Below, piece by piece: positions 11,555 through 44,904 of a stretch of DNA of 64,000 nt. The stretch is taken from assembly GCF_018271995.1 (NCBI RefSeq), contig NZ_JAGUCO010000028.1:1-64000 (forward strand), given 5' to 3'. The number at the start of each line of letters is the position of its first letter. Position 1 is the stretch's first letter. Under the pieces are notes generated by a model. The model was not told where the DNA came from, did not search any database, and worked only from the letters and a program-made list of their open reading frames with translations. The DNA is from Carboxylicivirga linearis (GTDB lineage Bacteria > Bacteroidota > Bacteroidia > Bacteroidales > Marinilabiliaceae). Position numbers and translations under genes: made by a program.

Positions 11555-13072
11555 TTAATACTCACAATCGGTCGCAATATATACCCGGTTATAATTTAAT
11601 TTCCAGCTATCGTATACCTTGAAGATGTATGGTAGCTTTCGGTTCATATTTTCCCAATCTCTTAAATCCTGATTAGTCCACGCAACTTCTGATAATAATG
11701 CAAAACGAGGGAAAATTCTCATTTCAGCGGTTTCATTACTAGTTACATATTCAGTCCAAAGGTTTCCTTGAACACCAATCACTTTATCGTGATATTTAGG
11801 ATCTAAATCGGCAGGAATAGGATCGTAATTATACGTTTTGTGCAAAGGCGTAGCATATGGAAATGCCAACGGCTCAAAATGCTCTTTATCATATGATACA
11901 TAGAAATCGAAATACATACGGTGATTCAATGTTGAAACCACTTCATTTCCTCTTTCTGCAGCAACTTTGGTCATGTTTTCTTTGGTCCAGAAGCGCCAGT
12001 GATAAACAGTAGCAGTCTTGCTCATATCGCCATCTAAAATCTCATCCCAACCGGCAATTTGCTTTCCTTTGGCATTTACCGTTTTTTCAATCTCTTTCAA
12101 AAACCATGATTGAAGCTCTTCTTCGTTTTTCAACCCAAGATCTTTAATCATCTTTTGGCATGATGCACTTTTCTCCCATTGCTCTTTAGGACACTCATCA
12201 CCTCCAATATGAATTAGATGGTAAGGGAACAAATCACAAACTTCGCTGATTACGTCTTTAGCAAACTGTAATGTTTTAGGATTACTTACATCCAACACAT
12301 CGTGAGACACTCCCCAATACTGTCGTACCTCGTATGACCTCTTAGGACCTAATTCGGGATAAGCATGCAAAGCTGCCATCATATGACCCGGCATATCAAT
12401 TTCAGGAATTACATCAATACCCAACTTAGCAGCATATTCAATTACTTCTTTGATTTGCTCCTGCGTATAATAATATCCTTTTCCGTACTCAACACCATCG
12501 GTAGGACAATCCATAATATCTGGCTTCCAACCCACTTGTGTTCCTTTTCTTATAGAACCTTTTTCGGTCAACAATGGATATTTCTTAATTTCAATTCTCC
12601 ATCCCTGATCATCAGATAAATGCCAGTGGAATTTATTTAATTTATGAAAAGCCATGCGATCCAAGGTCTTTTTCACAAACTCCATTCCCTGGAAGTGACG
12701 AGCCTCATCCAACATAAATCCACGATGCTTAAAACGTGGCTTATCGTCAATTTTAACCAAAGGCATGTAATTGGTTACTCCATCATTATCCTGCAATTGA
12801 GATAATGTTGCTTCTGCATACATCTTAGCCACATCGGTAGCATAAGTAATGGTAACTCCTTTTTTAGTTACTTCCAGCTTATATTCTTCTTCTCCCAGAT
12901 TTTTATCTTGCTCGTAGCTTACTTTTGGAGTTTCATCGTAAGTATAGCGACCAGCAACAACTTCCATGTTGTTTGGCTCCGGAATAACATGTGTTTGATA
13001 TACAATGTCGTTGTTTTGACAGCAACTAGCCAAAGCAACCGTTATTAGGGCAAATAGAAAAAACTTCTTCAT
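11555..13072 (-). CDS. GH20 beta-N-acetylhexosaminidase lipoprotein
   Basis: 505 residues. Lipobox LASC puts Cys17 as the lipidated residue. A short GH20b-like beta domain (about 30-105) precedes the catalytic barrel, whose HIGGDE motif supplies the Asp292-Glu293 pair of substrate-assisted catalysis; KLNKFHWHLSDDQGWR and IPEIDMPGH are further family hallmarks. The enzyme removes terminal GlcNAc or GalNAc; here the likely role is trimming GlcNAc from N-glycan antennae or the released chitobiose. Last gene of the minus-strand PUL arm, 54 bp after the GH29 stop and followed by a clear terminator. Confidence 0.93.
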   Translation of the reverse strand: MKKFFLFALITVALASCCQNNDIVYQTHVIPEPNNMEVVAGRYTYDETPKVSYEQDKNLGEEEYKLEVTKKGVTITYATDVAKMYAEATLSQLQDNDGVTNYMPLVKIDDKPRFKHRGFMLDEARHFQGMEFVKKTLDRMAFHKLNKFHWHLSDDQGWRIEIKKYPLLTEKGSIRKGTQVGWKPDIMDCPTDGVEYGKGYYYTQEQIKEVIEYAAKLGIDVIPEIDMPGHMMAALHAYPELGPKRSYEVRQYWGVSHDVLDVSNPKTLQFAKDVISEVCDLFPYHLIHIGGDECPKEQWEKSASCQKMIKDLGLKNEEELQSWFLKEIEKTVNAKGKQIAGWDEILDGDMSKTATVYHWRFWTKENMTKVAAERGNEVVSTLNHRMYFDFYVSYDKEHFEPLAFPYATPLHKTYNYDPIPADLDPKYHDKVIGVQGNLWTEYVTSNETAEMRIFPRFALLSEVAWTNQDLRDWENMNRKLPYIFKVYDSWKLNYNRVYIATDCEY

Positions 13073-13126
13073 ATTACTTAATTAAAAAAGTTGCCCCCAA
13101 TCAAGAGAACAACTTTCATTTAGTTA

Positions 13127-14575
13127 TTATAAATTCCTGTTATCAGCATCGATGGCAGCTTGTGACTTACCAAACGATTTACCAGCCATCTTTTCAACTT
13201 TCGAAATCTCAAAAGCAACTGCATATTGAGCAGTTCCTTTTTTCTTAGGCATATCTACCAAAGTAGAATTACCTTGTTGTGAGAAAGTCACCTGCTTTCC
13301 GGTTGCCACATCTGTTATTACAGCATCTTTAGCCACTAAACATCCCGACAACATTGCTTTTTCTGGTTGTTCGCCTTCTTCCAACATCACAATAGCATAT
13401 ACTTTCTTGCCATCTTTCGATTGGGTATATCGCACATTGGCTTCGGCATATGGTTCAACAGCTCTAGTGCTGTAGATGGCTTTACCATTAAGCTTCAACC
13501 AGGCTCCCATATCTTCAACTACTTCAACTTCTGCTTTGTTAAACCAACCTTCAGGTGAAGCACCCAGGTTCAACAACAGGTTTCCTCCTTTTGAAACAAT
13601 ATCAATCAACTTATGAGTTAAATCACGAGCTTCTTTCACGTTGGTTTCAACACTTTCTTCGAAACGATACGAGAAACAGCAATTAACAGTCATACAAGTC
13701 TCCCAAGGTATAGCTTCTGCCTCAGCAGGAATGTGTTGTTCTGGCGTGCGATAGTTTTCCCAGCGTCCGCCAACCCAACGATCAACCACCATAATACCCG
13801 GTTGCTTTTCACGACACATGGCTCCTACTCTGTCCATTCCCATATCTTGTCCTCTGTTGGCTTTATCAGCCCACGCACCGTCTAACCAAAGAATATCAAC
13901 ATCACCATAATTCGTCATCAACTCTTCCACTTGGTTATAGAAGAAATCTGTGTATTTCTTCCACCAGTCGGGATGACGCTCAATCTTATAGTTTACATTG
14001 CGACCAGGACTTTCAAATGATGGTGACCAATAATAAGGACTATGCCAGTCAGGTTTTGAAATATAAGCACCAATCATCATGTCTTTCTTGCGCATGGCAT
14101 CAAACAACGATCCTGTGATATCAGCATATTTAGCATGTGCATATGGATACTCTGGATTGGTGATTTTATAATCCGTTTGTTTGGTGTCCCACATCGTGAA
14201 ACCATCGTGATGCTTAGTTGTGAAAACAAAATACTTTGCTCCCATATCCGATGCCAGGTTTGCCCATTTGGCAGGATCAAACTTGGTTGGATTAAATTGC
14301 TTTGGTAAATCGAAATAATGCTCTCTAAATTCCTTCAAATTCTCGTGTGGAGTTAACCACTCAACGTCTTCTGACACTACCGGCCACGATTCGCATAAGC
14401 CTTCAACAGAGTAAGCTCCCCAGTGTACAAAAAACCCTAATTTAAGGTCTTGCCACTCGTCAAGCTTCTCCAATACCTGTGCATCTTCTTCTACTACATA
14501 CTCTTTACCTGCCCACTGAGCAAAAGAGGGTGATACAGCTAAAGTCAATGCTATTGATAAAAATATTTTTCTCAT
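13127..14575 (-). CDS. GH29 alpha-L-fucosidase, secreted
   Basis: 482 residues with a type I signal peptide ending SFAQ. The GH29 barrel shows KLGFFVHWGAYSV (45-57), FTTKHHDGF (118-126) and the nucleophile in ILWLDGAW (Asp232). LLLNLGASPEGWF is the family's C-terminal barrel block, followed by a small beta domain. It releases alpha-linked L-fucose; in this locus probably core or antennary fucose of N-glycans. The signal peptide lacks a lipobox, suggesting a periplasmic enzyme, in contrast with the lipoprotein GH29 at 17341-19569. Confidence 0.92.
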   Translation of the reverse strand: MRKIFLSIALTLAVSPSFAQWAGKEYVVEEDAQVLEKLDEWQDLKLGFFVHWGAYSVEGLCESWPVVSEDVEWLTPHENLKEFREHYFDLPKQFNPTKFDPAKWANLASDMGAKYFVFTTKHHDGFTMWDTKQTDYKITNPEYPYAHAKYADITGSLFDAMRKKDMMIGAYISKPDWHSPYYWSPSFESPGRNVNYKIERHPDWWKKYTDFFYNQVEELMTNYGDVDILWLDGAWADKANRGQDMGMDRVGAMCREKQPGIMVVDRWVGGRWENYRTPEQHIPAEAEAIPWETCMTVNCCFSYRFEESVETNVKEARDLTHKLIDIVSKGGNLLLNLGASPEGWFNKAEVEVVEDMGAWLKLNGKAIYSTRAVEPYAEANVRYTQSKDGKKVYAIVMLEEGEQPEKAMLSGCLVAKDAVITDVATGKQVTFSQQGNSTLVDMPKKKGTAQYAVAFEISKVEKMAGKSFGKSQAAIDADNRNL

Positions 14576-14591
14576 ACCTTTTCTTTTAGTG

Positions 14592-14659: not shown

Positions 14660-14674
14660 TAAATATAAAAGTTC

Positions 14675-17323
14675 TTAGTTTTCCAATTGATAACTGTTCT
14701 GCAAAGTAAATTCTTCTCGCAATGAGAGATCATTTGAATTTGATCCTGTCATTACTCGGAATTCTCCTGCTTCAACGGCCCATTTCTTATCAGCATTCCA
14801 CAATCGCAAATCTTGTTTACCTAAGGTAAAGGTGAAAGTCTTGGTTTCCCCAGCTTTAACCATTTGCTTATCAAAAGCCTTCAATGATTTGATTGGATTT
14901 GTTACCGATGATTTTAAATCGCGAACGTAAATCTGAACCACTTCTTTACCATCTACTTTTGAAGTATTGGTAACATCAACACTTACATTCACTTTAAAGT
15001 CACCTGTAGACTCATCAACAGCTACTTTCAGGTTATTATATTCAAATGATGAATAAGATAATCCGTATCCGAAAGGATATAAAGGTTGATCATCTTCATC
15101 AACATAACGATAGATGGTTGTTGGCTTTTGATTATAGTAAATTGGCAACTGACCTACCGACTTGGCAACCGATACAGGCATACGTCCTGATGGATTTGTC
15201 TTACCAAATAATACATTGGCAATGGCATTTCCACCTTGCTCACCGGCAAACCACGCCTCAACCAATGCATTTGCATTTTCCGAAACCCAGTTGGTAGACA
15301 ATGGACGTCCATTTTGCAATACAACAATATATGGTTTACCTAATTTATGAACTTCCTTAATCAACTCTTCCTGATCGGATGATAATCCTAATGTAGCTAC
15401 ATCGCGGTTCTCATTAACAGTCTTAGTGTTTTCTCCCACAGTGATGATAGCTAAATCAGACTGACGAGCCAATCTAACAGCACGAGCAATTCCTTCATCT
15501 TTCTTCGACCAACGCAACGATGCGGTTGCATGCCATTGATTATCGAAAAATTCGTAACGAACGTTGTATTTTACACCTTTCTTGAAGTCATATTTTGCTT
15601 TGGTAATAGGCGTTGTTCCTTTCCAGGCATCAACCACCAACTCATCGTTAATGTACAAACGCGAACCATCGTCAGAGCTGGTTCCAACCCATCCGTTTAC
15701 ATCTACATCGGTTTTGATATATCCTTCCCAACGTGCAGAAAAGAAATCATCTTCGATACCAGGATATGGATTCCAAGGCCATTCGAAATCTACTTCCTCA
15801 TCAACACGAGTAAGAGCCGGTTCACCTTTTAATTCCATATTGTTAAAGAAAGAGGCCTTCAGACCTTTTTTGCCGTTTCCGTGGAACAGATATTTACTAT
15901 CAATCACCGTTCCGCGACCAACAATAGTAGCTCCTTGCTCATATACAAATTGTGTTTTTGGAGAAGCTGCATTCAGTCCATCCATCAACGATACACCTTC
16001 AGCTCCGGATGCTGTGTAACCACCTAATTCAGCATAATTAGCCAAAGGACCTAACACCGCAATTTGCTTGTATTTATTTGGAGTCAATGGAAGTGTACCA
16101 TCATTTTCTAACAACACAATACCTTCTTCGGCAATATTTAGTGCAGTTTGAATATGATCATCGCAGTGGTAATATTCATCAATTCTTTCTTGTGTGATAA
16201 AAGGCTCTTCAAACAATCCTAAACTGAACTTAGTATAAAGAATTCCTTTTACAGCACGATCAATGTATTTCTCTTCCAGCTTACCTGTTTGAACCAAATC
16301 AATTAATGTAGCCTGATAGGTACTATCAGTAAAATCGTAGAACTGCATATCCATACCTGCTTGTGTAGCTTTACGAATCGCATCCTGCGGAGTCTCTGCA
16401 AAATGATGCACATTCCACAAGAAACGCATAGCGCCAAGGTCAGATACTGTATATCCTTTAAAACCCCACTCGTTACGTAACACATCAGTTAACAACCACT
16501 CGTTTCCGGTACATGGTATCCCATCTAACTCAGAGTAGGCCGACATTACATTTAAAGCACCGGCTTCTTTGATGGCACGCTCAAAGGTTGGTAAAAAATC
16601 CATACGGGCAGTGCGCTCGCCTAACAAAACTGGCGAAGCATTCGATCCAGAAATAGGAGCCGAGTGAACCGCATAATGCTTAGGACCAGCAATCATAGAA
16701 AAAGGCGATTTTGGCTCCAATCCGCCCATACCTTGTATCATCTGTACTCCCATTTCGGAAGTCAGGTATGTATCTTCTGAAAATAATTCAGCAACCCTTC
16801 CCCAACGAGGTTCGCGGGCAATACCCAAGGTAGGACCTAAAGCAACATGAGCACCGTTTATACGGGCTTCTGTTCCGATTACCTTACCTACTTTATTCAT
16901 CAATTCTTTATTCCACGAAGCACCCATGGCAATTGGCATAGGAAAAACGGTTGCTCCTTCTGTCAAATAACCATGAAGCATTTCCTCCATCAGCATCACC
17001 GGAATACCCAAACGTGAGTTTTCCATTGTGATACGTTGAACCGTATTATATTCGTCAGCTGTTTTAGGATAGAAATCGTGGATAGATCCTAAACCTAAAT
17101 CGCCAACTTGTTCAGCCACTTTATCTTCGTTAATTTCTCCTTCTACTTTCAGGTAATCTCCTCGGGTCATGTTCATCTGACGCACCTTTTCCTGAAGAGT
17201 CATCTCCTTTAACAGAAGTTCAACTCTTGTTTCTTCGGGCAACGATGCATCTTTCCACCCCTCTTTACTTCCGCAAGCCGAAACCACCAGGGCAACTAAA
17301 AATACTTGTGCTATTCTTTTCAT
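14675..17323 (-). CDS. GH3 beta-glycosidase with PA14 insert, lipoprotein
   Basis: 882 residues with lipobox VSAC (Cys17). The GH3 N-terminal barrel contains LGPTLGIAREPRWGR and the nucleophile in YTVSDLGAM (Asp295). A PA14 domain is inserted in the second domain at about 490-630 (ARWEGYIKTDV, SSDDGSRLYIND). GH3 C resumes (LGLSSDQEELI, VEAWFAGEQGG with a candidate acid/base Glu), then a fibronectin-III-like end. This architecture is usual for beta-glucosidases and beta-xylosidases; some GH3 enzymes take GlcNAc. Its target in an N-glycan locus is uncertain: beta-linked GlcNAc, xylose of plant N-glycans or glucose are options. Confidence 0.92.
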   Translation of the reverse strand: MKRIAQVFLVALVVSACGSKEGWKDASLPEETRVELLLKEMTLQEKVRQMNMTRGDYLKVEGEINEDKVAEQVGDLGLGSIHDFYPKTADEYNTVQRITMENSRLGIPVMLMEEMLHGYLTEGATVFPMPIAMGASWNKELMNKVGKVIGTEARINGAHVALGPTLGIAREPRWGRVAELFSEDTYLTSEMGVQMIQGMGGLEPKSPFSMIAGPKHYAVHSAPISGSNASPVLLGERTARMDFLPTFERAIKEAGALNVMSAYSELDGIPCTGNEWLLTDVLRNEWGFKGYTVSDLGAMRFLWNVHHFAETPQDAIRKATQAGMDMQFYDFTDSTYQATLIDLVQTGKLEEKYIDRAVKGILYTKFSLGLFEEPFITQERIDEYYHCDDHIQTALNIAEEGIVLLENDGTLPLTPNKYKQIAVLGPLANYAELGGYTASGAEGVSLMDGLNAASPKTQFVYEQGATIVGRGTVIDSKYLFHGNGKKGLKASFFNNMELKGEPALTRVDEEVDFEWPWNPYPGIEDDFFSARWEGYIKTDVDVNGWVGTSSDDGSRLYINDELVVDAWKGTTPITKAKYDFKKGVKYNVRYEFFDNQWHATASLRWSKKDEGIARAVRLARQSDLAIITVGENTKTVNENRDVATLGLSSDQEELIKEVHKLGKPYIVVLQNGRPLSTNWVSENANALVEAWFAGEQGGNAIANVLFGKTNPSGRMPVSVAKSVGQLPIYYNQKPTTIYRYVDEDDQPLYPFGYGLSYSSFEYNNLKVAVDESTGDFKVNVSVDVTNTSKVDGKEVVQIYVRDLKSSVTNPIKSLKAFDKQMVKAGETKTFTFTLGKQDLRLWNADKKWAVEAGEFRVMTGSNSNDLSLREEFTLQNSYQLEN

Positions 17324-17340
17324 ATGACGTGTTAATTGTT

Positions 17341-19569
17341 TTAAAACAAATCTATTTCAGCAATAGCTGCTTGTTTACTATCACCTGCAATTTCTACCGA
17401 CTTAATTCTCACATACCTTGCTTCAACAGCCTTTTCAAAGTAATGAGTTCGGGTAGTTGGCATATTGATAAGGTTACCAAATTCGAAATCATCAGCTTTT
17501 GTCCACGATCGTCCATTGGTACTTACTTCAATCACTCCGCGCTGAATCATTCCAGCATTATCAACTTTTTGAGGAGTATAAGCAAATCCTTTTACCGTTT
17601 TATTTTCTAATAAATCAATAGTGATAGAATGAGTACGTCCAGCTTTTGACAACCAGTAAGTATTGGCATCAGCATCGATAGCCAAATCTGCTTCATTACC
17701 TTTCAACTGCGAGCTTGATGCTTTTACTTTCCAATCTCTTTTAATCAAACCAACATTCTGAACTAATACAGGTCCTTGCTTATCGTTGTTGAAAGCACGG
17801 GCTTTTACCTCAGCTGATTCAATTAATACAGGCTCTGTATATAAAATTGATTCCTCAGTTGGCTCAGTACCATCCAAAGTATATCTAATATGCAAATTCT
17901 TATTCAGATTAGCGACCGGGTCCTTTCCATGTAATTTCCAACGAAACACATGTTTACTTGGCTCAATGGTTACCTTTCCTTCAACATCTCTCGAAAGCTG
18001 TAATTGAGGCGGTTGGACATCGCAATAATAAGCAGAGATAGTTGCTATAGCAGGATAATATCTTGAATCCAACACAGTGAAGCGGAATTTATCAGAAGTT
18101 ACTTCAGGGAAACGTAAAATTCGCTTATAGCCGATATTAGTTCCATTGGCAATTTCCTTCCACTCGCCTTTAATAAAAGCTTCCACTTTATGATCTGCAA
18201 CACGCTCACCATGCGATTGAATGGCTTCCTGAATCACAAAACGATTGATAGTAACCGGCTCCTTAGTGGTAATCTCGATACTTTTATTGGCATCATCCAA
18301 TAATTCGTAGGTTGATGTATTTCCATCCAAAATATTTTTGGCTGCAGAAGCCGATGCAAACAAATTAGTTCCATAGGTTTCTTTAATTCTTTCTCCAACT
18401 TCTTTCAGAACTTTCACATCTTCATCAGAAAATAATCCATCACGATTAGGGGGAATATTTAACAAGAAGATTGAATTTCCACCCACAGCTCGCTCATACA
18501 TATCAAAAACATCATCTGTACTACGAACCATTTGGGTTACATCATCACGATAAAACCATCCTTCACGAATAGATGTATTGGTTTCGGCAGGTTGATAATG
18601 CAAATATTTGCCTTCAACTAATTTTTCCTCGCTTCCCAAATCATGATCCATCAAATCGGGGAACATATTCATGGTTTGAGGATTATCCTGGTAAGGAATT
18701 ACATTCCATTCTGTATCGCGGGTATCTCCTTCTTCGTTACCACACCAACGAATATCTTCTTTACCGAAGATAACCGCATCCGGAGCCAAAGCTTTGATCA
18801 TTTTTCTCCAGGCACGATAATTATATTTTTGTCCGCCTTTACGCTTTGGATGAGCACCATCAAACCAAACTTCGTGAATAGGACCATACTCAGTCAACAA
18901 TTCAAACAGTTGATTCATGAAATACTCGTTGTAATCATCCACATTAGCTGTAAAAGTGGTTTTGTTTTCAAAAGGTCGACCTTCAACGGGGCGTGGAATT
19001 ACTCTGTCAGTATATGAACTTAAATTTCCATAAAGTCCATCAGGACTTTCTATCTGGTATAAATCAGCTGGTGACAAATAAACAGCTAATTTCAAACCGT
19101 ATTTCTGGCATGATGCAGAAAGGTCTTTCAAAACATCACCTTTTCCGTTTTTAAATGATGATGACATAATACCATGTTTGGTATAACGGCTCTGCCATAA
19201 AACAAATCCATCGTGATGCTTGGCTGTAAAAATAACTTTGGTCATTCCGGCAGCCTTTAGACTTTCGCACCACTGATCGGTATCAATATTTTTAAGGTCA
19301 AAAACCTTTGGATCTTCAAACCCATTACCCCATTCTTTCCTGGTAAAAGTATTAGGCCCGAAGTGAATAAAAGCAATATATTCATCTTCTAAAGCTTGCA
19401 TTTGCTCGGGAGTCGGAACAACGTGAGCAGCTTTTAAAATGATACTATCGGGAGTATCTGTTTCAGAAACAGGAATAGTGTTGGCAGTTTTCATCATTAA
19501 ACCCGACGGTTGCGAACACCCGGCAACCAAGGTTATGGCAAGCAGACAAATGGCAATAAGTTTTTCCAT
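17341..19569 (-). CDS. GH29 alpha-L-fucosidase lipoprotein with accessory beta domains
   Basis: 742 residues, lipobox VAGC (Cys18). GH29 barrel at about 50-400: AFIHFGPNTFT, FTAKHHDGF (114-122) and HEVWFDGAH with nucleophile Asp237; SIFLLNIPPNRDGLF closes the barrel. Then come a galactose-binding/F5-8-like segment (about 405-530), a chitobiase C-terminal-like segment with IRYTLDGTEPTEES, and a second F5/8 type C domain to the end. The FxxHFG/PNT signature is typical of the alpha-1,3/4-acting GH29 branch, so it may remove Lewis-type fucose, while the GH29 at 13127 takes other linkages (inference). 17 bp upstream of the GH3 gene. Confidence 0.9.
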   Translation of the reverse strand: MEKLIAICLLAITLVAGCSQPSGLMMKTANTIPVSETDTPDSIILKAAHVVPTPEQMQALEDEYIAFIHFGPNTFTRKEWGNGFEDPKVFDLKNIDTDQWCESLKAAGMTKVIFTAKHHDGFVLWQSRYTKHGIMSSSFKNGKGDVLKDLSASCQKYGLKLAVYLSPADLYQIESPDGLYGNLSSYTDRVIPRPVEGRPFENKTTFTANVDDYNEYFMNQLFELLTEYGPIHEVWFDGAHPKRKGGQKYNYRAWRKMIKALAPDAVIFGKEDIRWCGNEEGDTRDTEWNVIPYQDNPQTMNMFPDLMDHDLGSEEKLVEGKYLHYQPAETNTSIREGWFYRDDVTQMVRSTDDVFDMYERAVGGNSIFLLNIPPNRDGLFSDEDVKVLKEVGERIKETYGTNLFASASAAKNILDGNTSTYELLDDANKSIEITTKEPVTINRFVIQEAIQSHGERVADHKVEAFIKGEWKEIANGTNIGYKRILRFPEVTSDKFRFTVLDSRYYPAIATISAYYCDVQPPQLQLSRDVEGKVTIEPSKHVFRWKLHGKDPVANLNKNLHIRYTLDGTEPTEESILYTEPVLIESAEVKARAFNNDKQGPVLVQNVGLIKRDWKVKASSSQLKGNEADLAIDADANTYWLSKAGRTHSITIDLLENKTVKGFAYTPQKVDNAGMIQRGVIEVSTNGRSWTKADDFEFGNLINMPTTRTHYFEKAVEARYVRIKSVEIAGDSKQAAIAEIDLF

Positions 19570-24769: not shown

Positions 24770-25373
24770 ACAATGAATATTAATTTAATTGAATTTAAGA
24801 GTGCATTTCATAAACTATGCACTTTCTTGCATATAAGCATAAACATTTGCACATTTTACACTTTTCGGGGCTAATATATGCGATATTTAATGCGCCTTTA
24901 TGCATTTTAATATTTGTTTTAATTTCTTACAATTTTTATACCAAAACATATAAGACACCAATAAAACTTAATTCTTTTTTCACAACCCACAACTCCAAAT
25001 ACCTTAAATACTGCATACCAAACAAACAACTTCACCTTTCCATTAAACACTAATCAAGCAAACATCATTAAATAGGCAATAACTAACATTCCAAAGCATT
25101 CAACCCATTAATTTATGTATAAAAACAAAAAATAAAGCATAATTCATGCACAAACATGCAAATAAGATATTAAATTTGCATTATTCACAGTAAGTCAACT
25201 CATATAGTTTATTTATAAACTATAGTGCTAAAAAAGCTTAATAAGCTCTTAAATGCTTTATTTAAAAAGAAAAATAACGCACACGAGTAATACATTATCA
25301 ACAAATAGATTTCACTGTGCAGAAACAGAAAAAGAATAACCCTTAGGTAATAAGTATATAAAGAATTAAGAAA
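24770..25373. promoter_or_regulatory. Divergent control region of the N-glycan locus
   Basis: 604 bp between susC and the PNGase gene with no credible ORF. It contains AGTGCAT-N10-ATGCACT (24801-24824), a perfect 7-bp-arm dyad 32 bp upstream of the susC start, and further ATGCA or TGCA motifs nearby and at about 25145-25160. TAAATTTG (25171-25178) matches the Bacteroidota -7 element TAnnTTTG for the plus strand, but I see no convincing -33 TTTG. The dyad is a candidate operator for the locus's DeoR protein. Confidence 0.45.
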
Positions 25374-34753: not shown

Positions 34754-34762
34754 ACGGAACTT

Positions 34763-35815: not shown

Positions 35816-38073
35816 TGATAAAAATATATACAGCAATAATAATCAGCCTTTTATTGTGGTCATGCTCAAACAAACAGCCTGCCGGCAACAACGATGCGAG
35901 CATACTGAACTACGTAAATCCGTTTATGGGAACGGACGGCCCCGGTAACACCTATCCGGGTGCTCAATACCCATTCGGAGCAGTTCAGCTAAGTCCCGAT
36001 CATGGTTTAAGCGGCTGGGATCGTATTTCGGGATACTCCTACCCCGACACGGTTATCAGCGGTTTTAGCCATATGCATTTAAGCGGAACCGGCGCTGGCG
36101 ATTTATACGATTTGCTCTTCATGCCCATCAACAAAAGAAGTTCGAGAACACTCAATGAGAATGGCAACAGACATTTTTCAGTTTTCTCTCATATCAATGA
36201 AGGTGCCTCGCCAGGATACTATTGGGTGTTGCTTCAGGACTTCGGCATAAAAGCAGAAATGACCGCAAGTGCCCGCGGGGGAGTACAGAGATATCATTTT
36301 CCTGCGGACACAGGCAAGGCTGTTATTCTTGATTTGGGATATGCTTTGAATTGGGATGGCCCAACCGACACGTACATTAAAGTGGTTGATAATCAAACTT
36401 TGGTTGGATACCGAAAATCATCAGGTTGGGCAGCCGATCAACGCGTGTATTTCAAAGCTGAATTTTCACTACCCTTCTCTGGTTATCAGCTTTTTGAAGA
36501 AGATAAAAAGGTAAAATTAGAAGCAAAAGCGAAACACACCAAAATAAGAGTCAATTTCGATTCTAATAAAGAAGAGGTAATTGAGATTAAAGTGGCATTG
36601 GCATCATCCAATATTGAAGGCGCTGAAGCCAACTTTGCTGCTGAATTAGCTAATAAAGACTTTGCTGCTATAAAAGCTGAGTCAGAACAAGCTTGGACAA
36701 AAGAATTATCCAAGATTAACGTTGAATCAAGGGATGATGAGTTAAAAAGGACTTTCTACACTACGCTTTATCAAACCATGCTGAATCCGCGTATTTACTC
36801 TGATGTAAACGGATATTACAAAGCCCCGAACGGAAAAGTAGAGAAAGCTGAAGGCTATACGCGCTATGAGTTATTCTCGCTTTGGGATACTTTCAGAGCA
36901 GCTCATCCTCTGTACACCATTATGCACCCAAGTCGGGTTCAGGACATAGTGAAATCTTTTATGGCACATTATCGCGAAACAGGATTGCTTCCTGTTTGGT
37001 CGCTCGAAGGCAACGAAACCAATATGATGATTGGTTATCATGCAGTTCCGGTAATTGTTGATGCCTATTTGAAAGGATTATTGCTTGATTGTGATGCCAA
37101 TGAATTATACGAGGCTTGCAAAGCATCAGCCATGCAGGATGGAAAACGCATTGACGAATACAAAGCAAGAGGTTTTGTCTCGGCTGATAAAAAACACGAA
37201 AACTGGTCTGTTTCATTAACCTTAGAATATGCATACAACGACTGGTGTATCGCTCAACTGGCAAAAGATTTAGATAAAGTAGAGGATTATCAATATTTTA
37301 AGAAACGATCTGAGAATTGGGCCAATCATTACGATGGCGAAAGCTCATTCCTCAGAACCATAGAAGCCGATGGTTCTTTTATCAAACACTTTATTCCAAA
37401 AGAATATACCGATGATTACTGCGAATCAAATGCATGGCAGTATTTCTGGTTTGTACCGCATAATATTCAAGGCCTGATAAACCAACTAGGCTCATCGCAA
37501 CGCTTTGAAGAAAAGCTGGATTCTATGTTTAACTATTATCCGGAAGAAGATGATCAACTGCCTATCTTCAGCACGGGTATGATTGGCCAATATGCACACG
37601 GAAATGAACCCAGTCATCATGTTGGCTATTTGTACAATTACATTGGCAAACCCTGGAAAACGCAGGCGATCGTTCGACAAATTGCCGAGAGTCAATATTC
37701 ACCCACTCCGAATGGACATTGTGGCAACGAAGATTGCGGACAAATGTCGGCTTGGTTTGTTTATTCAGCACTAGGATTTTACCCGGTTAATCCGGCCGAT
37801 GGAATCTATGTTATTGGCACTCCAATGCTGGATAAAGCCAGTATCAAGCTCGAAAATGGCAAACAATTTGCAGTAATAGCTGAAAATCTTTCAAAAGAAA
37901 ATAAATACATACAGGAAGCTTTTTTAAATGGCAAACCTTTAAAAGAATCCTATATCCAACATCAGGAAATAATGAAAGGTGGCGAACTGATTTTTAAAAT
38001 GGGATCGGAACCCAACATTTATTTATGGACTGATAAAAACGCTTACCCTCCATCTGACGAACAAAAAAACTAA
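35815..38073 (+). CDS. GH92 alpha-mannosidase lipoprotein
   Basis: 752 residues, lipobox LWSC. Canonical GH92: YVNPFMGTDGPGNTYPGAQ and FGAVQLSPDHG at the N-terminal beta domain, FSHMHLSGTGAGD, the EGNET segment (Glu401) and GNEDCGQMSAW (637-647) in the alpha-toroid domain. GH92 enzymes are calcium-dependent inverting exo-alpha-mannosidases, usually for alpha-1,2 linkages. Being a lipoprotein, it may act on the surface or on the periplasmic face of the membrane. Start codon overlaps the preceding stop by 1 bp. Confidence 0.95.
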   Translation: MIKIYTAIIISLLLWSCSNKQPAGNNDASILNYVNPFMGTDGPGNTYPGAQYPFGAVQLSPDHGLSGWDRISGYSYPDTVISGFSHMHLSGTGAGDLYDLLFMPINKRSSRTLNENGNRHFSVFSHINEGASPGYYWVLLQDFGIKAEMTASARGGVQRYHFPADTGKAVILDLGYALNWDGPTDTYIKVVDNQTLVGYRKSSGWAADQRVYFKAEFSLPFSGYQLFEEDKKVKLEAKAKHTKIRVNFDSNKEEVIEIKVALASSNIEGAEANFAAELANKDFAAIKAESEQAWTKELSKINVESRDDELKRTFYTTLYQTMLNPRIYSDVNGYYKAPNGKVEKAEGYTRYELFSLWDTFRAAHPLYTIMHPSRVQDIVKSFMAHYRETGLLPVWSLEGNETNMMIGYHAVPVIVDAYLKGLLLDCDANELYEACKASAMQDGKRIDEYKARGFVSADKKHENWSVSLTLEYAYNDWCIAQLAKDLDKVEDYQYFKKRSENWANHYDGESSFLRTIEADGSFIKHFIPKEYTDDYCESNAWQYFWFVPHNIQGLINQLGSSQRFEEKLDSMFNYYPEEDDQLPIFSTGMIGQYAHGNEPSHHVGYLYNYIGKPWKTQAIVRQIAESQYSPTPNGHCGNEDCGQMSAWFVYSALGFYPVNPADGIYVIGTPMLDKASIKLENGKQFAVIAENLSKENKYIQEAFLNGKPLKESYIQHQEIMKGGELIFKMGSEPNIYLWTDKNAYPPSDEQKN

Positions 38074-38077
38074 TAAA

Positions 38078-39076
38078 ATGAGTGGAAGAAGAAACTTTAT
38101 CAAAATGGCTTTAATGGGAGGCGCCGCCGTTGCCTCTCAGGGACTGAAAGCGCGTACGCTTAAAGCAACAGGATTTAAAGGAAACTCTGGTAGTAAACCT
38201 TTGGTTATTTCCACCTGGAATCATGGCATACCTGCCAATGCAGAAGCCTGGAAAATCTTAAGTACAGGCGGCAAGTCGATTGATGCAGTTGAAAAAGGAG
38301 TGATGATCCCCGAAGGCGATCCAGAAGTTCGAAGCGTTGGATACGGAGGCTATCCCGACAGAGATGGTCATGTTACATTAGATGCTTCCATTATGGACTA
38401 CAATATGGATACCGGTGCCGTTTGTTTCCTCGAAGGAATAAAACATCCAATCAATGTGGCACGATTGGTGATGGATAAAACTCCACATGTGATGTTGTCT
38501 GGCGAGGGAGCACTGCAGTTTGCTTTGGAACAAGGTTTCAAAACCGAGAATCTTCTTACTGAAAAATCGAAGAAAGATTGGGAAGAGTGGAAAAAGAAAT
38601 CGGACTACAAACCTGTTATCAACATCGAAAATCACGATACCATTGGAATGTTAGCCATTGATGAAAAAGGACGCGTGGCAGGTGCATGTACTACTTCAGG
38701 TGCATCATGGAAAATGCATGGTCGTGTGGGTGATTCGCCAATTGTAGGTGCCGGTTTATTTGTGGATGGTGAAGTTGGTGGAGCCACAGCAACAGGATTG
38801 GGAGAAGCTGTAATTCGTACTGCCGGTAGTGCTATTGTAGTTGAATTAATGCGCAACGGGATGTCGCCATTTGATGCCTGCAAAGAAGCCACTCACCGCA
38901 TTTACAAGCAGCACAAAGGTCGTCCTGAATTCGATTACCTGCAAGTTGGATTTATTGCTATTAACAAGCATGGCGAATACGGTAGTTACAGTCTTCGTAA
39001 AGGTTTTAACTACGCCGTTTTCGACGAAAAAGGTGGTAACCGCATGGAAGATGCTGTATATTATTACGAAGAATAA
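38078..39076 (+). CDS. Glycosylasparaginase (N4-(beta-N-acetylglucosaminyl)-L-asparaginase)
   Basis: 332 residues. The N-terminus GRRNFIKMALMGGA is a Tat-type signal (twin Arg). The Ntn-hydrolase precursor shows the autocleavage site ENHDTIGMLA, where Thr188 becomes the new N-terminal nucleophile, and downstream GDSPIVGAGLFVDG and ATATGLGEAVIR complete the family pattern. The enzyme cuts GlcNAc-Asn, the linkage remaining when a glycan is trimmed without PNGase or on short glycopeptides. It begins 4 bp after the GH92 stop. Confidence 0.93.
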   Translation: MSGRRNFIKMALMGGAAVASQGLKARTLKATGFKGNSGSKPLVISTWNHGIPANAEAWKILSTGGKSIDAVEKGVMIPEGDPEVRSVGYGGYPDRDGHVTLDASIMDYNMDTGAVCFLEGIKHPINVARLVMDKTPHVMLSGEGALQFALEQGFKTENLLTEKSKKDWEEWKKKSDYKPVINIENHDTIGMLAIDEKGRVAGACTTSGASWKMHGRVGDSPIVGAGLFVDGEVGGATATGLGEAVIRTAGSAIVVELMRNGMSPFDACKEATHRIYKQHKGRPEFDYLQVGFIAINKHGEYGSYSLRKGFNYAVFDEKGGNRMEDAVYYYEE

Positions 39077-39383
39077 AATATACTTAAACAAAGCTTAACC
39101 AATTTTGTACTGTTTTGGCCTCATAATGAAAGACGAATGTTATGAAGTTGAAATATAGTAAGACCAGGAAGCTGAGAACTTGTTCGAAGATCACCTGGCC
39201 GCACTTAATTTCAACAAAAAACATGAGTCATTCAGTATGTAACCTTGATTTTCTTTGTTTCGTTTCTTGTATCAAGACAAGAAATGAAAAGCCCCCGCGG
39301 CTTGAGCGGTGATTATCAAGACTAAGTTGCAGTTATGCATTGGCCACACAATTTTGTTTATCTAAAAGAATATTGGATTGCAT
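39077..39383. other. Gene-free spacer with hairpin repeat
   Basis: No ORF. TTTCGTTTCTTGT (39258-39270) and ACAAGAAATGAAA (39277-39289) form a 13-bp stem with one mismatch, followed by AGCCCCCGCGGC. The left part reads like decayed sequence. The hairpin looks like a dispersed Bacteroidota intergenic repeat and may end or attenuate transcription before the second GH92. Confidence 0.45.
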
Positions 39384-42300
39384 ATGAATATACTCAAAAA
39401 AAAATTGAAGCCATTGATCAAGATAATTCCAATAGCCCTTCTTATATTATTGGTATCAACTACTAATGCACAAGAAAAAAAGGACTACACTCATTACGTT
39501 GATCCCTTTATCGGAACGGGCGGACACGGACATACCTTCCCCGGAGCTACTTTACCTTTTGGAATGGTTCAACTAAGCCCTGATACAGGTATTGAAGGCT
39601 GGGACTGGTGTTCTGGTTATCATGAATCGGACAGTTCGGTAATTGGTTTTTCGCATACCCATTTAAGCGGAACAGGAGGAGCAGATTATGGCGATGTATT
39701 ATTGATGCCAACTGTTGGAAACGTTAATTTTCAACCGGGTACCAAAGCCGATCCTGATGCTGGTTATCGAAGTCGTTTTAGTCATGATAATGAGATAGCT
39801 TCACCCGGATATTATTCGGTATTGTTAGATGATTATAATATCAAGGCCGAATTAACTGCCACGCTTCGCACTGGAATGCATAAATACACTTTTCCTGAAT
39901 CAGATGAGGCACATATCATTCTTGATCTGGAGCATGGTATTGCCAATAACGTTACCAATGCTGATATCCAAGTTCTTTCCGATACAAAGGTTGAAGGAAC
40001 TCGTTTCTCACAAGGCTGGGCAAGCGATCAACGATTGTTTTTTGCCATGGAATTTTCAAAACCCTTTGATAAGGTTCTGTTAGCTCAAGAAGATAAATTG
40101 GTAAAATCAAACACCAAAGCCGAAGGCAAAAGCATTAAAGCAGCGTTCAATTACCACACTAATGAAGGTGAAACCATCATTATAAAAGTGGCTATTTCAT
40201 CCGTATCGTGCGAAAATGCTTGGGCCAATATGGAAGCTGAAAACAAAGGTTTTGATTTTGATGCAACCTTAGCTCAGGCAAAAGAAACGTGGAATAAAGA
40301 GCTTTCGAAAATTAAAGTGGAAGGTGGTTCTGACGATGAAAAAGTAATTTTCTATACTGCTTTGTATCATACCAAAATACATCCAAATACTTTCCAGGAT
40401 GTGAATGGCGAATACCGTGGTATGGATATGAAGATTCACAAAGCGGAAGGTCGCAGTCATTACACTTTGTACTCGTTATGGGACACCTTCCGTGGATTAC
40501 ATCCTCTGTATTCAATTGTTGATACAAAATACAACAACGATTTTATTAAATCGATGATTGCCAAATACAATGAATCGGGCCGTTTACCGGTATGGGAATT
40601 ATGGAGCAACGAAACCAATACGATGATTGGCTATCATTCTGTGCCCGTTATTGCCGATGCTATTTTAAAAGGATATTACACCGGCGATGTGCAAGAAGCC
40701 TATCAGGCCATGCTTTCTTCAGCTATGGCTGACGGACAAGGCCTGAATGACTACAAACATATGCACTATATTCCTCGCGAAAAAGAAGCAAATTCAGTTT
40801 CAAAAACCGTGGAATATGCATTTGATGATTATTGCATTGCTCTGGTTGCACTCAAATTAGGCAAGATCGATGATTACAAAGAATTCACGCTTCGATCACT
40901 TAATTACAGAAATGTATTTGATCCGGAAACTAAATTTATGCGTGGCCGCGATGAAAACGGAGTTTGGAATCCTGACTTTGATCCAATGGCTATTACTTTG
41001 TTTGGTTCGGGCGATTTCACCGAAGGAAACTCATGGCACTACTCCTTCTTTGCGCCTCATGATATTAATGGTTTGATAAAGCTTTATGGTGGTAAAGATG
41101 CATTTATTGCCAAGCTGGATGAGATGTTCGAGCAGGATGCTGTTAATGATAATGAGCATGCGCATGATGTAACGGGTTTGATTGGTCAGTATGCGCAAGG
41201 CAACGAACCATCGCACCATGTGATTTACACTTACAACTTTGCTCAACGTCCGGATAAAACGCAAGCCATGATTCGTCGAGTAATGAAAGAGATGTACACT
41301 ACCGACAAAGATGGCTACAGCGGAAATGAAGACACGGGGCAGATGTCGGCTTGGTACGTATTGTCTTCTATGGGTTTCTATTCAATGAATCCGGTAAGCG
41401 GTGAATACATTATCGGCAGTCCTGTTTTTGATAAGGTCACCATCAATCTTGAGAATGGTAAGCAGTTTATTATTGAAGCGAATAATAACTCTGATGATAA
41501 TGTTTATATAAGCTCTGCTACATTGAATGGGAAAGCATACGATTATACGTACATCAAGCATACTGATATAATGCAAGGTGGAAAGCTAACCTTCGAAATG
41601 AGCTCAACACCTCAAAGTTGGGGAACATCAATTGAAGCTGCTCCGATTGAATTAGCGGCTAATGAAGACATTGAGATTGAGCCACGTGCCAACAAGGCAT
41701 TTATGCCTTATTCGGCTTCATCAGCGCAAATTTTCAAAGATCAACTGCCTGTTGAATTGCTTTGTCAGACAGAAGGAGTTACTATCTATTACACTTTAGA
41801 TGGGACGAGCCCAACAACAGAATCAAAGGTTTATAGCAAACCAATTATTCTGAAAAGGTCAACTACATTAAAAGCGATCAGTATCAAGGAAGGCTATATT
41901 ACCAGTGATGTTAAAAGCATTCAGTTCCGCAAGGCATACTTCAATGATGGAAAATCAGAATATCCGGTTCTCTCGACTGAGGCAACCATATCGCAAGCCT
42001 ATAATCCAGGTAAACAAACTCTAATTGATGGTAAGTTAGGTTCTAACAATTATCGCGATGGGTTGTGGACAGGAACCAACGATAAGAAATTTGATGCAGT
42101 TATCGACTTAGGCACGAAGAAGAAAATCAGCCAGGTAACCATTAATTTCACTCAGAACACGGGTTCTTGGATCTTCCCTCCTAAATCAATTACTATTTTA
42201 GGATCGAATGATGGTGAGAACTTTACAGAAATTGCAAACGAGCAATACGAATTACCATCACACCATGTTGATATACTTGTGTTGACAAAAACCATAGCAT

Positions 42301-42419
42301 CAAAAACAAAAGCACGATACCTAAAAGTAATCATCGAAAGTGCGGGTAAATTACCTAGCTGGCATTCGGGTTCAGGTTTGCCATCGTACTTGTTTATTGA
42401 TGAAATTACAGTAGAGTAA
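39384..42419 (+). CDS. GH92 alpha-mannosidase with chitobiase-C and F5/8 C domains
   Basis: 1,011 residues from the ATG at 39384 (a TTG two codons upstream is less likely). Signal peptide ends TTNAQ with no lipobox. GH92 body at about 25-760: YVDPFIGTGGHGHTFPGA, WSNETNTMIGYHSVP, GNEDTGQMSAW. A chitobiase C-terminal-like segment (VTIYYTLDGTSPTTES, about 810-850) and an F5/8 type C domain (about 870-1010) follow and probably bind the glycoprotein. Catalytic motifs agree with the GH92 at 35815, so both are expected to be active alpha-mannosidases. It lies 307 bp after the glycosylasparaginase and may have its own promoter. Confidence 0.95.
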   Translation: MNILKKKLKPLIKIIPIALLILLVSTTNAQEKKDYTHYVDPFIGTGGHGHTFPGATLPFGMVQLSPDTGIEGWDWCSGYHESDSSVIGFSHTHLSGTGGADYGDVLLMPTVGNVNFQPGTKADPDAGYRSRFSHDNEIASPGYYSVLLDDYNIKAELTATLRTGMHKYTFPESDEAHIILDLEHGIANNVTNADIQVLSDTKVEGTRFSQGWASDQRLFFAMEFSKPFDKVLLAQEDKLVKSNTKAEGKSIKAAFNYHTNEGETIIIKVAISSVSCENAWANMEAENKGFDFDATLAQAKETWNKELSKIKVEGGSDDEKVIFYTALYHTKIHPNTFQDVNGEYRGMDMKIHKAEGRSHYTLYSLWDTFRGLHPLYSIVDTKYNNDFIKSMIAKYNESGRLPVWELWSNETNTMIGYHSVPVIADAILKGYYTGDVQEAYQAMLSSAMADGQGLNDYKHMHYIPREKEANSVSKTVEYAFDDYCIALVALKLGKIDDYKEFTLRSLNYRNVFDPETKFMRGRDENGVWNPDFDPMAITLFGSGDFTEGNSWHYSFFAPHDINGLIKLYGGKDAFIAKLDEMFEQDAVNDNEHAHDVTGLIGQYAQGNEPSHHVIYTYNFAQRPDKTQAMIRRVMKEMYTTDKDGYSGNEDTGQMSAWYVLSSMGFYSMNPVSGEYIIGSPVFDKVTINLENGKQFIIEANNNSDDNVYISSATLNGKAYDYTYIKHTDIMQGGKLTFEMSSTPQSWGTSIEAAPIELAANEDIEIEPRANKAFMPYSASSAQIFKDQLPVELLCQTEGVTIYYTLDGTSPTTESKVYSKPIILKRSTTLKAISIKEGYITSDVKSIQFRKAYFNDGKSEYPVLSTEATISQAYNPGKQTLIDGKLGSNNYRDGLWTGTNDKKFDAVIDLGTKKKISQVTINFTQNTGSWIFPPKSITILGSNDGENFTEIANEQYELPSHHVDILVLTKTIASKTKARYLKVIIESAGKLPSWHSGSGLPSYLFIDEITVE

Positions 42420-42529
42420 AAAATAAATAGTTTATTAGTTTTAAGACAGTAGGCAGTAGTTTATCAGCAGTATCGAGATGATTATTTTGCTGAAAAAGCA
42501 AAAATACTGATAAACAACAGGAACTAAAT

Positions 42530-42660: not shown

Positions 42661-42672
42661 AAAAATTCAAAT

Positions 42673-44904
42673 ATGAAACGAATATTAACCATCATAACAG
42701 CAGTTGGCCTCTTGAGTTCTGTAAGTGCTCAAAACCCGGCCGACTATGTGAATCCTTTTATCGGTAGCGATAATTACGGGACCACAAACCCGGGGGCCAT
42801 TGTGCCTCGCGGAATGATTTCGGCTGTTCCATTTAATGTATCTGGTCGTCCCAACAAACACGAGAAGGACAGTGATTGGTGGAGTACCCCCTACTCTAAC
42901 GTAAATGAAACATTTACGGGTTTTAGTCATGTTAATCTTTCTGGTGTGGGATGCCCTGATTTGGGAACCATCATTCTTATGCCCACAACCGGAGAGCTTA
43001 AAACAAGCCCTGGTGAATATGCCACCAGCTATAGCGATGAAGAAGCCGAACCGGGTTATTATTCCAATAAACTGACTCGTTACGACATCAAAACAGAAGT
43101 AACAGCTAGTGTACGCAGCGCTGTCAACCGATATACTTTCCCTGCTGGTCAGGCCAATGTCCTATTAAATTTAGGATTAGGATTGACCAACGAGCAAGAC
43201 GGTTATTTGCGCATTACATCCAATAACGAGGTTGAAGGATTCAGAACCGTTGGATCGTTTTGTTACAACAGTCCGGAAGAGATTTATCCGGTTTATTTTG
43301 TAATTAAGTTAGATAAAAAAGCGGATACCTTTGGTACCTGGAAAAAACCTCCTCACTATAATGGTGTGGAAGGAAACTGGATGGGTTACAATGGTAAAAC
43401 TCGTTTGATGAAGGAATATACCAAGCCTTTAGTTGGCGACAGTATCGGTGCTTATTTTACTTATCATTTCGATAAGGAAACAGAAGTTGAAGTGCAAGTG
43501 GGCGTTAGTTATGTAAGCATCGAAAATGCCCGTGAGAACCTTCATAAAGAGATTGCCAACAAGCATTTTAACGAGATTCGTACCGAAGCCTACAATAAAT
43601 GGAATGAAACACTTTCGCGCATCAAAGTAAAAGGTGGAACTGAAGATCAGAAAACCATTTTCTACACTGCATTATATCACACACATATTCATCCCAACAC
43701 TTTGAATGACATAAACGGTGAATACCCAACTGTTGGCTCAGGTAAAATTGGTCACACGGATGGAACTCGTTACACTGTTTTCTCTTTATGGGACACTTAT
43801 CGCAACATGCATCAATTAATGAGTTTAGTATACCCTGATGAACAATTGGGAATGGTTCGTTCGATGATTGATATGTATAAAGAAAATGGCTGGTTGCCTA
43901 AATGGGAACTAAATTCCACCGAAACTTTTACAATGGTGGGTGATCCTGCGGCCGTTGTGATTAGCGATACTTACATGCGAGGCATCCGCGATTTTGATAC
44001 TGAGATGGCCATGGAAGCTATGCTAAAAAGTGCCACTCAAACAGAGAATAATCCGTTGCGTCCGGAGTTGAACGAATATCTAAAGCATCAATACATACCT
44101 GTTCAGGAAGAATTTGACGGATCGGTTTCAACAACCTTGGAATATGGTGCTGCTGACTTTGCTATTGCACAGATGGCAAAAGAACTCGGGCAGACATCAA
44201 CCTATAAAACCTTTATGAAACGTGCCGGATATTACAAAAACATGTACGACAAAGGCGAAGGTGTGATGCGTCCACGCATGAGTGATGGTAGCTGGTTTGC
44301 CCCTTTCTCGCCCATGGACGGAGCTAATTTTAAGCCCGTAACCGGTTTTATCGAAGGAACCTCATGGCATTATTCATTTATGGTTCCTTATGATGCAAAA
44401 GGTTTGATCAAACTGAACGGTGGCAATAAAAAGTTTGTTGACAAATTGCAAAGTGTATTCGACAATGGACTTTACGAACCCGATAACGAGCCGGATATGG
44501 GTTATGCTTTCCTTTTTAATTATGTGAAAGGTGAAGAGTGGCGTACGCAAAAAGAAGTTCGGAAAATTGTGGATCACGATTACTCAAACACTCCGGGAGG
44601 AATACCAGGAAACGACGATACCGGAACCATGTCGGCCTGGCTGGCTTTTGCCATGATGGGAATTTACCCTGATGCTCCGGCTGTTCCTCAATACACTATC
44701 TGCAGTCCTTATTTCGATGAGATTACCATTGAACTAGATTCGGGCTTTTACAGCGGCAAAAACTTTATCATCGAAACAGTGAAGACAAACAGAAAAGCTT
44801 CAACTATTGAAAAGATGGAATTAAATGGCCAACCACTTAAAAGTTATTTTATCAGTCACAATGACATTGTGAAAGGTGGTAAATTAAAGATTTGGCTTAA
44901 ATAA
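42673..44904 (+). CDS. GH92-family mannosidase, divergent motif variant
   Basis: 743 residues with a type I signal peptide ending SVSAQ. N-terminal domain carries YVNPFIGSDNYGTTNPGA and FSHVNLSGVGCPDLG. In the toroid domain the usual NET-IGYHSVP segment reads STETFTMVGDPAAVV, losing the His, and GNEDxGQMSAW reads GNDDTGTMSAW. The acidic residues remain, so it should be catalytic, but the pocket that selects the linkage is different from the other two copies. It may act on alpha-1,3, alpha-1,6 or mannosyl-phosphate linkages (inference). Last gene of the plus arm, followed by a terminator. Confidence 0.9.
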   Translation: MKRILTIITAVGLLSSVSAQNPADYVNPFIGSDNYGTTNPGAIVPRGMISAVPFNVSGRPNKHEKDSDWWSTPYSNVNETFTGFSHVNLSGVGCPDLGTIILMPTTGELKTSPGEYATSYSDEEAEPGYYSNKLTRYDIKTEVTASVRSAVNRYTFPAGQANVLLNLGLGLTNEQDGYLRITSNNEVEGFRTVGSFCYNSPEEIYPVYFVIKLDKKADTFGTWKKPPHYNGVEGNWMGYNGKTRLMKEYTKPLVGDSIGAYFTYHFDKETEVEVQVGVSYVSIENARENLHKEIANKHFNEIRTEAYNKWNETLSRIKVKGGTEDQKTIFYTALYHTHIHPNTLNDINGEYPTVGSGKIGHTDGTRYTVFSLWDTYRNMHQLMSLVYPDEQLGMVRSMIDMYKENGWLPKWELNSTETFTMVGDPAAVVISDTYMRGIRDFDTEMAMEAMLKSATQTENNPLRPELNEYLKHQYIPVQEEFDGSVSTTLEYGAADFAIAQMAKELGQTSTYKTFMKRAGYYKNMYDKGEGVMRPRMSDGSWFAPFSPMDGANFKPVTGFIEGTSWHYSFMVPYDAKGLIKLNGGNKKFVDKLQSVFDNGLYEPDNEPDMGYAFLFNYVKGEEWRTQKEVRKIVDHDYSNTPGGIPGNDDTGTMSAWLAFAMMGIYPDAPAVPQYTICSPYFDEITIELDSGFYSGKNFIIETVKTNRKASTIEKMELNGQPLKSYFISHNDIVKGGKLKIWLK

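Follow-up and report, generated by a model that had tools for sequence, protein, structure and literature searches.

The closest described systems to the locus considered here come from Xanthomonas and Bacteroides; the locus itself lies in a window of 64,000 nucleotides from Carboxylicivirga linearis (positions 1 to 64,000 of contig NZ_JAGUCO010000028.1, assembly GCF_018271995.1), where a gene for CutC, a protein elsewhere labelled with copper, stands among genes for N-glycoprotein breakdown. In the nix region of Xanthomonas, N-glycan genes likewise lie together with cutC, which is listed there under copper metabolism (PMC6718126; this and the other papers cited by identifier are drawn on in excerpt). 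That cluster shares with the window a fucosidase, a hexosaminidase, a beta-mannosidase, an alpha-mannosidase and a TonB receptor (PMC6718126, PMC5700972), and its cutC (XAC3091) is followed in locus number by an N-glycan-related asparaginase (XAC3092). VirK has predicted links to CutC, to one of the nix enzymes and to an asparaginase related to N-glycans (PMC5700972). The Xanthomonas cluster is, however, proteobacterial, its CutC carries the copper label, and the portions of these accounts used here mention no PNGase. The plant N-glycan pathway of Bacteroides massiliensis (PMC9522356) combines PNGase, GH92, GH3, GH29 and SusC/SusD as the window does, and deglycosylation in the periplasm after import has been suggested for it (Crouch et al. 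2022, PMC9522356). Unlike the window, it is spread over several loci and its PNGase belongs to group 2, and the main text of that article, the part drawn on here, contains neither 'CutC' nor 'glycosylasparaginase'. Elizabethkingia meningoseptica, with PNGase F or type II PNGase and a glycosylasparaginase, shares these enzyme families with the window. For the solved CutC proteins (human, Shigella, Bacillus, Streptococcus) a copper role has been assumed, whereas the setting in the window is one of N-glycan and hexosamine catabolism. We know of no agreed function for CutC, and the literature searched, mostly outside subscription journals, contained no paper that assigns it to the metabolism of N-glycans or hexosamines.

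The window is nearly the whole of one 64,586-base contig in an assembly of 6.05 Mb, and the locus spans positions 11555-44904 as two divergent arms on either side of a 604-base AT-rich gap (24770-25373; Table 1). Outward from the gap, the minus arm carries SusC, SusD, a GH29 with F5/8 domains, a GH3 with PA14, a second GH29 and a GH20, and the plus arm carries PNGase F, DeoR, CutC, GH2, a transglutaminase-like protein, C69, CBM9, GHL10, GH92, glycosylasparaginase (GA) and two further GH92 proteins. All of the families that a sequence-only reading had placed here were recovered, as Pfam matches over curated cut-offs together with TIGR04056 and the open reading frames (ORFs), and its proposal that two divergent arms degrade N-glycoproteins is supported by these gene families. 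By its "two peptidase-like proteins" the C69 and transglutaminase-like proteins are probably meant, and to its list the plus arm adds the DeoR regulator, CutC, the CBM9 protein and GHL10. The SusC and SusD genes form an adjacent pair with co-oriented glycan-degrading enzymes, as in a polysaccharide utilisation locus, and the set for the N-glycan core is present at the level of sequence families (PNGase, three GH92, GH2, GH20 and GA). The predicted gene products place the locus among the PNGase-first loci by which Bacteroidota use N-glycans, and so in a known kind. The plus-arm genes from GH2 to GA follow one another closely, with no gap above 9 bases and an overlap of 1 base once the start of the CBM9 gene is corrected, and CutC ends 97 bases upstream of the GH2 beta-mannosidase gene. 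Every protein of this arm except DeoR and CutC has a signal-like N-terminus, lipobox and Tat-like starts being judged by pattern and eye only. We consider it probable that the locus serves N-glycoprotein utilisation and that CutC would be an enzyme working in the cytosol in that pathway, not a copper protein.

Since it is hard to see what a copper protein would do in a glycan locus, we examined the neighbourhoods of CutC elsewhere. Within the order, CutC exceeded its cut-off in 103 of 247 genomes; 60 of the 102 others were taken, 12 chosen for GA and 48 as one per family without GA, and relatives of the window's GA, GH2, GH20, GH92, GH29 and transglutaminase-like protein were counted as partners. 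A partner was found anywhere in the region for 34 of the 60 CutC loci as against 1 of 40 control regions (p 2.6e-9), the controls coming from 30 of these genomes and from contigs of about 100 kb or more and some of the CutC regions lying on short contigs and being cut. A partner was the immediate co-directional neighbour of CutC at 31 of the 60 loci, compared with 1 of 543 control genes; by subset this was 25 of the 48 without GA and 6 of the 12 with it. The neighbours in the 48 loci were transglutaminase-like proteins (14), GH2 (5), GH20 (4), GH29 (3) and GH92 (1). A transglutaminase-like gene adjoined CutC in 14 of the 48 and in 0 of the 12 GA-bearing genomes (one-sided P 0.028), which does no more than suggest this gene as a stand-in for GA, itself present in 24 of the 247 genomes, 13 of which have CutC over the cut-off. 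The transglutaminase-like secreted proteins next to CutC occur in forms of about 400 and about 870 residues, for example at L108:8796-11408 and L225:8740-9957.

The association with GA itself was examined in the class. Among 198 genomes, CutC was present in 68, GA in 84 and both in 64; GA thus occurred in 64 of 68 genomes with CutC but in 20 of 130 without it (Fisher p 6e-29, no correction for kinship), with GA and isoaspartyl peptidases distinguished, here and in the order, by eye on the basis of score and identity. In these 64 genomes, which include the window's own with a distance of 10.0 kb, CutC and GA lay within 300 bp of each other in 23, within 5 kb in 29, where about 0.2 would be expected, and within 15 kb in 35. 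In the class, 40 regions were also fetched (20 with CutC far from GA, 18 with GA close and 2 at about 10 kb), of which 34 were counted; because they had been picked by GA distance, they do not serve as an unbiased count. A further, non-random set comprised the best 80 among the matches listed in named genomes, ranked by likeness to an 11-sequence CutC alignment, less four in which the ORF caller gave no CutC frame (L224, L229, L232 and L258). A partner or a C69 gene lay beside CutC in 38 of these 76 loci, 20 of them with GA; under stricter coverage, and with C69 not counted, a partner was found in 35 and GA in 19. Inside Bacteroidota the figure was 35 of 60. Across the whole named set, the loci with a partner come from, among others, Pedobacter, Mucilaginibacter, Chitinophaga, Cytophagales, Saprospiraceae and one Acidobacteriales genome. 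In one Ignavibacteriae locus (L218), the neighbour of CutC carries an N-glycanase_C match. The order GH20-GA-CutC-GH2 recurs in three operons (L294, L302 and L303), one of which also contains GH92 and two of which have a transporter-like protein upstream, and a Chitinophaga operon (L199) joins a sugar-transporter-like protein, a ROK kinase, GA, CutC, two phosphatase-superfamily proteins, GH20 and a glucosamine-6-phosphate-deaminase-like protein. On a CutC tree of 171 rows, built by FastTree only and with long branches flagged, GA adjacency (38 rows) required at least 16 changes against a mean of 34.7 over 30 shuffles; therefore the adjacency appears to be partly inherited and partly rebuilt, not one frozen operon. 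Linkage of CutC to N-glycan enzymes beyond chance is well supported in Bacteroidota and weak outside.

The protein itself has the features of its family. One CutC copy was found in the assembly, and it agrees with the CutC family profile and fold, with NCBIfam PRK11572 falling below its cut-off (231.5 of 311 bits). Its model (pLDDT 97) was matched by Foldseek to solved CutC proteins (human 3iwp, Shigella 1twd, Bacillus 4r9x, Streptococcus 2bdq) at TM 0.75-0.95 over the query. The next folds among the matches listed were other TIM barrels, MJ1099, KDPGal aldolase and phosphoribosylanthranilate isomerase among them, at TM 0.47-0.68 over the query; many such neighbours act on phosphorylated substrates. 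In an alignment of 59 of the 61 CutC rows collected by then, E26, C28, R59 and D125 were invariant and H121, R122, T147, S148, G177, G179 and H198 were kept in at least 90%. Mapped by eye, the conserved acids, Arg, His and Cys, along with a GxG after strand 7, stand at or near the C-terminal ends of the strands, which is where TIM-barrel enzymes of this sort act. From these neighbours and residue positions we infer that CutC may be an enzyme for a phosphorylated compound derived from N-acetylglucosamine (GlcNAc).

Several of the surrounding enzymes could be named more closely. The GH2 protein matches solved beta-mannosidases (2je8, E 1e-250). The Asparaginase_2 protein is, from its relatives, a glycosylasparaginase and not an isoaspartyl peptidase: its nearest solved relatives bear the former name (E about 1e-125; the top isoaspartyl peptidase reaches about 1e-39), most of its sequence can be aligned to solved glycosylasparaginases, which we take to be the Elizabethkingia meningoseptica enzyme, and the solved beta chain begins at query residue 188, the Thr188 of an HDT motif. 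Glycosylasparaginase requires an Asn with free amino and carboxyl groups, and so probably clears the GlcNAc-Asn left by peptide digestion. The sequence-only reading had seen in PNGase and GA two independent routes to the GlcNAc-Asn link; from what is generally known of GA's needs they are probably complementary instead. In the transglutaminase-like protein, Cys174 and His207 are invariant in 15 aligned sequences. Its first two PDB profile matches are 3e8v (2.5e-19, to a different part of the protein) and 3isr, a putative cysteine protease (1.5e-8); kinship with the cytosolic PNGase was considered and rejected, as the 'peptide N-glycanase' 2f4m ranks only third (E 0.12). Its model is moderate (pLDDT 74) and leads Foldseek to cysteine-protease and transglutaminase folds at low TM-scores. 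In view of these ranks, model and scores, we claim only membership of the transglutaminase superfamily. For GHL10 no solved relative was found by sequence in the PDB at E 0.001; its gene and that of the CBM9 protein adjoin each other (33692-35815, +).

Which N-glycans the locus would serve is a question on which its enzymes point in different directions. The nearest solved relatives of the window's PNGase are 4qhb (E 4e-113) and 3ks7 (E 3e-112), which we take to be Bacteroides group 1 PNGases, 3ks7 presumably being BF0811 of Bacteroides fragilis. The window enzyme (411 residues) has Asp203 where group 2 has Gly and is without an N-terminal bowl domain. Across 11 aligned PNGases, namely this one and 10 of the 20 others collected, the 5 of 410-426 residues carry Asp and the 6 of 557-616 residues carry Gly. 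An Asp at the gate (Glu in PNGase F) and the absence of the bowl domain are the hallmark of group 1 (PMC9522356), to which the enzyme, PNGase F-like in these predicted features, belongs. BF0811, which shares its group and gate residue, was the sole group 1 Bacteroides enzyme tested in that work, and it freed complex and high-mannose N-glycans but failed to release those of plants (PMC9522356). The sequence-only reading had favoured high-mannose, paucimannose or fucosylated insect-, algal- or plant-like glycans over mammalian complex ones. The Asp gate, like that of the group whose tested member spared plant N-glycans, argues against core-fucosylated plant or insect glycans as the target. Such a target is upheld in part by other genes. 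For example, the GH29 with F5/8 domains has as its top solved match 4zrx, named only as an F5/8 type C domain protein, and then the alpha-1,3/4-fucosidases 3ues and 3mo4; the two nearest solved relatives of the GH3 are named beta-xylosidase or xylosidase (7zb3, 8c7f), many of the next being beta-glucosidases; and the genome encodes a second PNGase (L036:8237-9931, contig C104) with Gly at the gate and a PNGase_F-II_N domain, hence of group 2. We regard a locus aimed at plant- or insect-type N-glycans with core alpha1,3-fucose and xylose as a possibility, though not the favoured one. With a group 1 PNGase on one side and plant-fitting GH29, GH3 and group 2 PNGase on the other, the choice is not settled by sequence, and complex, high-mannose or plant-type N-glycans may each be substrates.

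Other glycan genes lie elsewhere in the assembly. A C69 gene stands about 6 kb from the PNGase on C104. The reported lack of a sialidase holds for the locus, but elsewhere in the genome a cluster on contig C107 (L037) combines a sulfatase, a BNR_2 sialidase-like gene, GH92 and GH3, with GH29 and SusC further on, on the opposite strand; in all, the assembly gave three GH130 and two BNR_2 matches. Likewise, the claim that an endo-GlcNAcase is missing stands for GH18, of which none was found in the assembly, while GH85 was not searched for.

For CutC the principal alternative to an enzyme of the pathway is that the N-glycan locus is real and CutC a mere passenger, brought there by chance or shared regulation and engaged in copper handling or housekeeping. 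Copper phenotypes speak for it, since RNA interference or silencing of animal CUTC heightens copper sensitivity, although human CUTC binds copper weakly and is an unlikely chaperone (PMC11083455), and PMC6718126 files cutC under copper metabolism. In E. coli, on the other hand, the copper sensitivity of cutC mutants was entirely due to loss of the small RNA MicL (PMC6538781). Parts of our own survey also weigh against a glycan role. An immediate partner of this kind is absent from 77 of 171 CutC loci, above all outside Bacteroidota (13 of 16), where just three named loci have one (GA once, GH20 twice). CutC and GA are on separate contigs in 26 of the 64 class genomes with both, and far apart on a single contig in 3; of the 26, 18 could be read, and CutC had a GH2 or GH20 neighbour in 8 and no partner in 10. 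In the order, 13 genomes have both genes; the distance is at most 5 kb in 3 of them and at most about 10 kb in 5, the window included. PNGase does not usually accompany CutC: of 19 regions around other PNGases, covering up to 20 kb and less in two cases, none contained CutC, and relatives of the window's other enzymes were found only in L045 (GH2), L049 (SusD, GH29 and GH20) and L056 (GH29). Moreover, E. coli and Lactococcus, present as control rows, possess CutC, and we know of no N-glycan locus in either. Against a passenger stand the closeness of CutC and GA in the class (no more than 5 kb apart in 29 of 64, with about 0.2 expected), the 25 of 48 order loci set beside 1 of 543 control genes, and the 16 or more changes in GA adjacency on the tree, which do not fit one frozen operon. 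On this evidence we consider a passenger CutC unlikely. Still less credible, and in our judgement very improbable, is another fucosylated mannose-containing glycan as substrate (algal or fungal, for example), with PNGase and GA in other amidase roles: PNGase F, GA, a beta-mannosidase-like GH2, GH92 and GH20 jointly cover the N-glycan core, even if sequence alone cannot reveal substrates and the locus holds GHL10, CBM9 and a xylosidase-like GH3, which to our knowledge are not typical of described N-glycan loci.

Base composition and regulatory signals of the window were also considered. G+C per 4-kb block is 0.35-0.41 across the locus and 0.31-0.35 in the flanks, except for 0.37 at 44001-48000, and the raised G+C of the window at 12001-44000 may reflect lateral acquisition. 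The Bacteroidota promoter pattern TTTG-N17-22-TAnnTTTG had 5 matches against 4.4 expected, and 0 in the divergent region; as the matches are near expectation and none is in that region, no promoter is claimed. Repeats sought in the divergent intergenic region gave none that were convincing. Beyond the locus, a cobalamin riboswitch (Rfam RF00174, 108.7 bits) at 51966-52156 (-) precedes a DUF4198 gene (51069-51872) by about 90 bases, and a hybrid histidine kinase of 1997 residues with many PAS domains (57086-63079, -) adjoins a response-regulator/kinase gene (55911-57050).

Table 1. Features of the two-armed locus, with their positions in the window and the matches or traits behind each assignment.
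Feature	Position	Strand	Basis
GH20 beta-N-acetylhexosaminidase, lipoprotein-like N-terminus	11555..13072	-	PF00728 E 2.5e-113; lipobox pattern
GH29 alpha-L-fucosidase	13127..14575	-	PF01120; nearest solved are alpha-L-fucosidases 6gn6, 9eu1
GH3 with PA14 domain	14675..17323	-	PF00933/PF01915/PF07691
GH29 fucosidase with F5/8 domains	17341..19569	-	Pfam; solved-structure matches
SusD-like outer-membrane lipoprotein	19791..21704	-	PF12771/PF12741
SusC/RagA TonB-linked importer	21710..24769	-	TIGR04056 636.6 bits
Divergent intergenic region, 604 bp, AT-rich	24770..25373	.	between arms
PNGase F-like amidase, group 1	25374..26609	+	PF09112/PF09113; Asp203 gate, without N-terminal bowl domain
DeoR-family regulator	26632..27393	+	PF00455/PF08220
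CutC, TIM barrel, without signal-like N-terminus	27494..28249	+	PF03932 E 2.3e-67
GH2 beta-mannosidase, lipoprotein-like N-terminus	28347..30896	+	Pfam; 2je8 E 1e-250
Transglutaminase-like protein	30899..32059	+	PF01841
C69 dipeptidase-family protein	32068..33690	+	PF03577
CBM9-domain protein, signal-like N-terminus	33692..34753	+	PF06452; ORF listed from 33596, start corrected from translation
GHL10 glycosidase-like protein, lipoprotein-like N-terminus	34763..35815	+	PF02638
GH92 alpha-mannosidase family	35815..38073	+	PF07971 E 9.3e-177
Glycosylasparaginase, Tat-like signal (RRNFIK)	38078..39076	+	Asparaginase_2; solved relatives
GH92 alpha-mannosidase family with CHB_HEX_C and F5/8 domains	39378..42419	+	Pfam
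GH92 alpha-mannosidase family	42673..44904	+	PF07971 E 2.2e-164

Taken as one pathway, which we infer from the predicted families, the locus would work as follows. SusC and SusD would import glycopeptides or freed glycans over the outer membrane, and PNGase would release whole glycans from peptides. The GH29 enzymes would then take off fucose, GH20 and GH3 would trim GlcNAc from the ends and perhaps also xylose or some other sugar in beta linkage, the three GH92 enzymes would remove alpha-mannose, GH2 would take off the core beta-mannose and GH20 would split the chitobiose. On the peptide side, the C69 and transglutaminase-like proteins would attack the chain and GA would cleave the last GlcNAc-Asn. 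DeoR probably regulates the plus arm, and CutC, in the cytosol, would act after import on a hexosamine product that is probably phosphorylated. A more specific proposal, which we put forward tentatively and hold to be less likely than the general one, is that CutC, instead of being a copper protein, would be a barrel enzyme of the cytosol that takes part in hexosamine breakdown, handles phosphate and draws its substrate from the N-glycan core; in the boldest form, it would handle 1-amino-GlcNAc or its 6-phosphate. In that form PNGase, GA and perhaps the transglutaminase-like enzymes would free sugars from the Asn amide as glycosylamine, the compound that CutC would take up; by analogy, phosphoribosylanthranilate isomerase, one of its Foldseek neighbours, works on an N-glycoside. 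The glycosylamine substrate is a guess, prompted by the known release products of PNGase and GA. If it were true, the same role would hold for human CUTC.

By itself, the glycoprotein locus of C. linearis belongs to a known kind, of which it is a further and unusually complete example. What is new for CutC is its setting: the linkage within Bacteroidota is well supported and the role in the pathway is unproven. As CutC spans bacteria to humans, its linkage to GA and other N-glycan enzymes offers a concrete and cheap hypothesis for the function of the family, and one that names the operons concerned.

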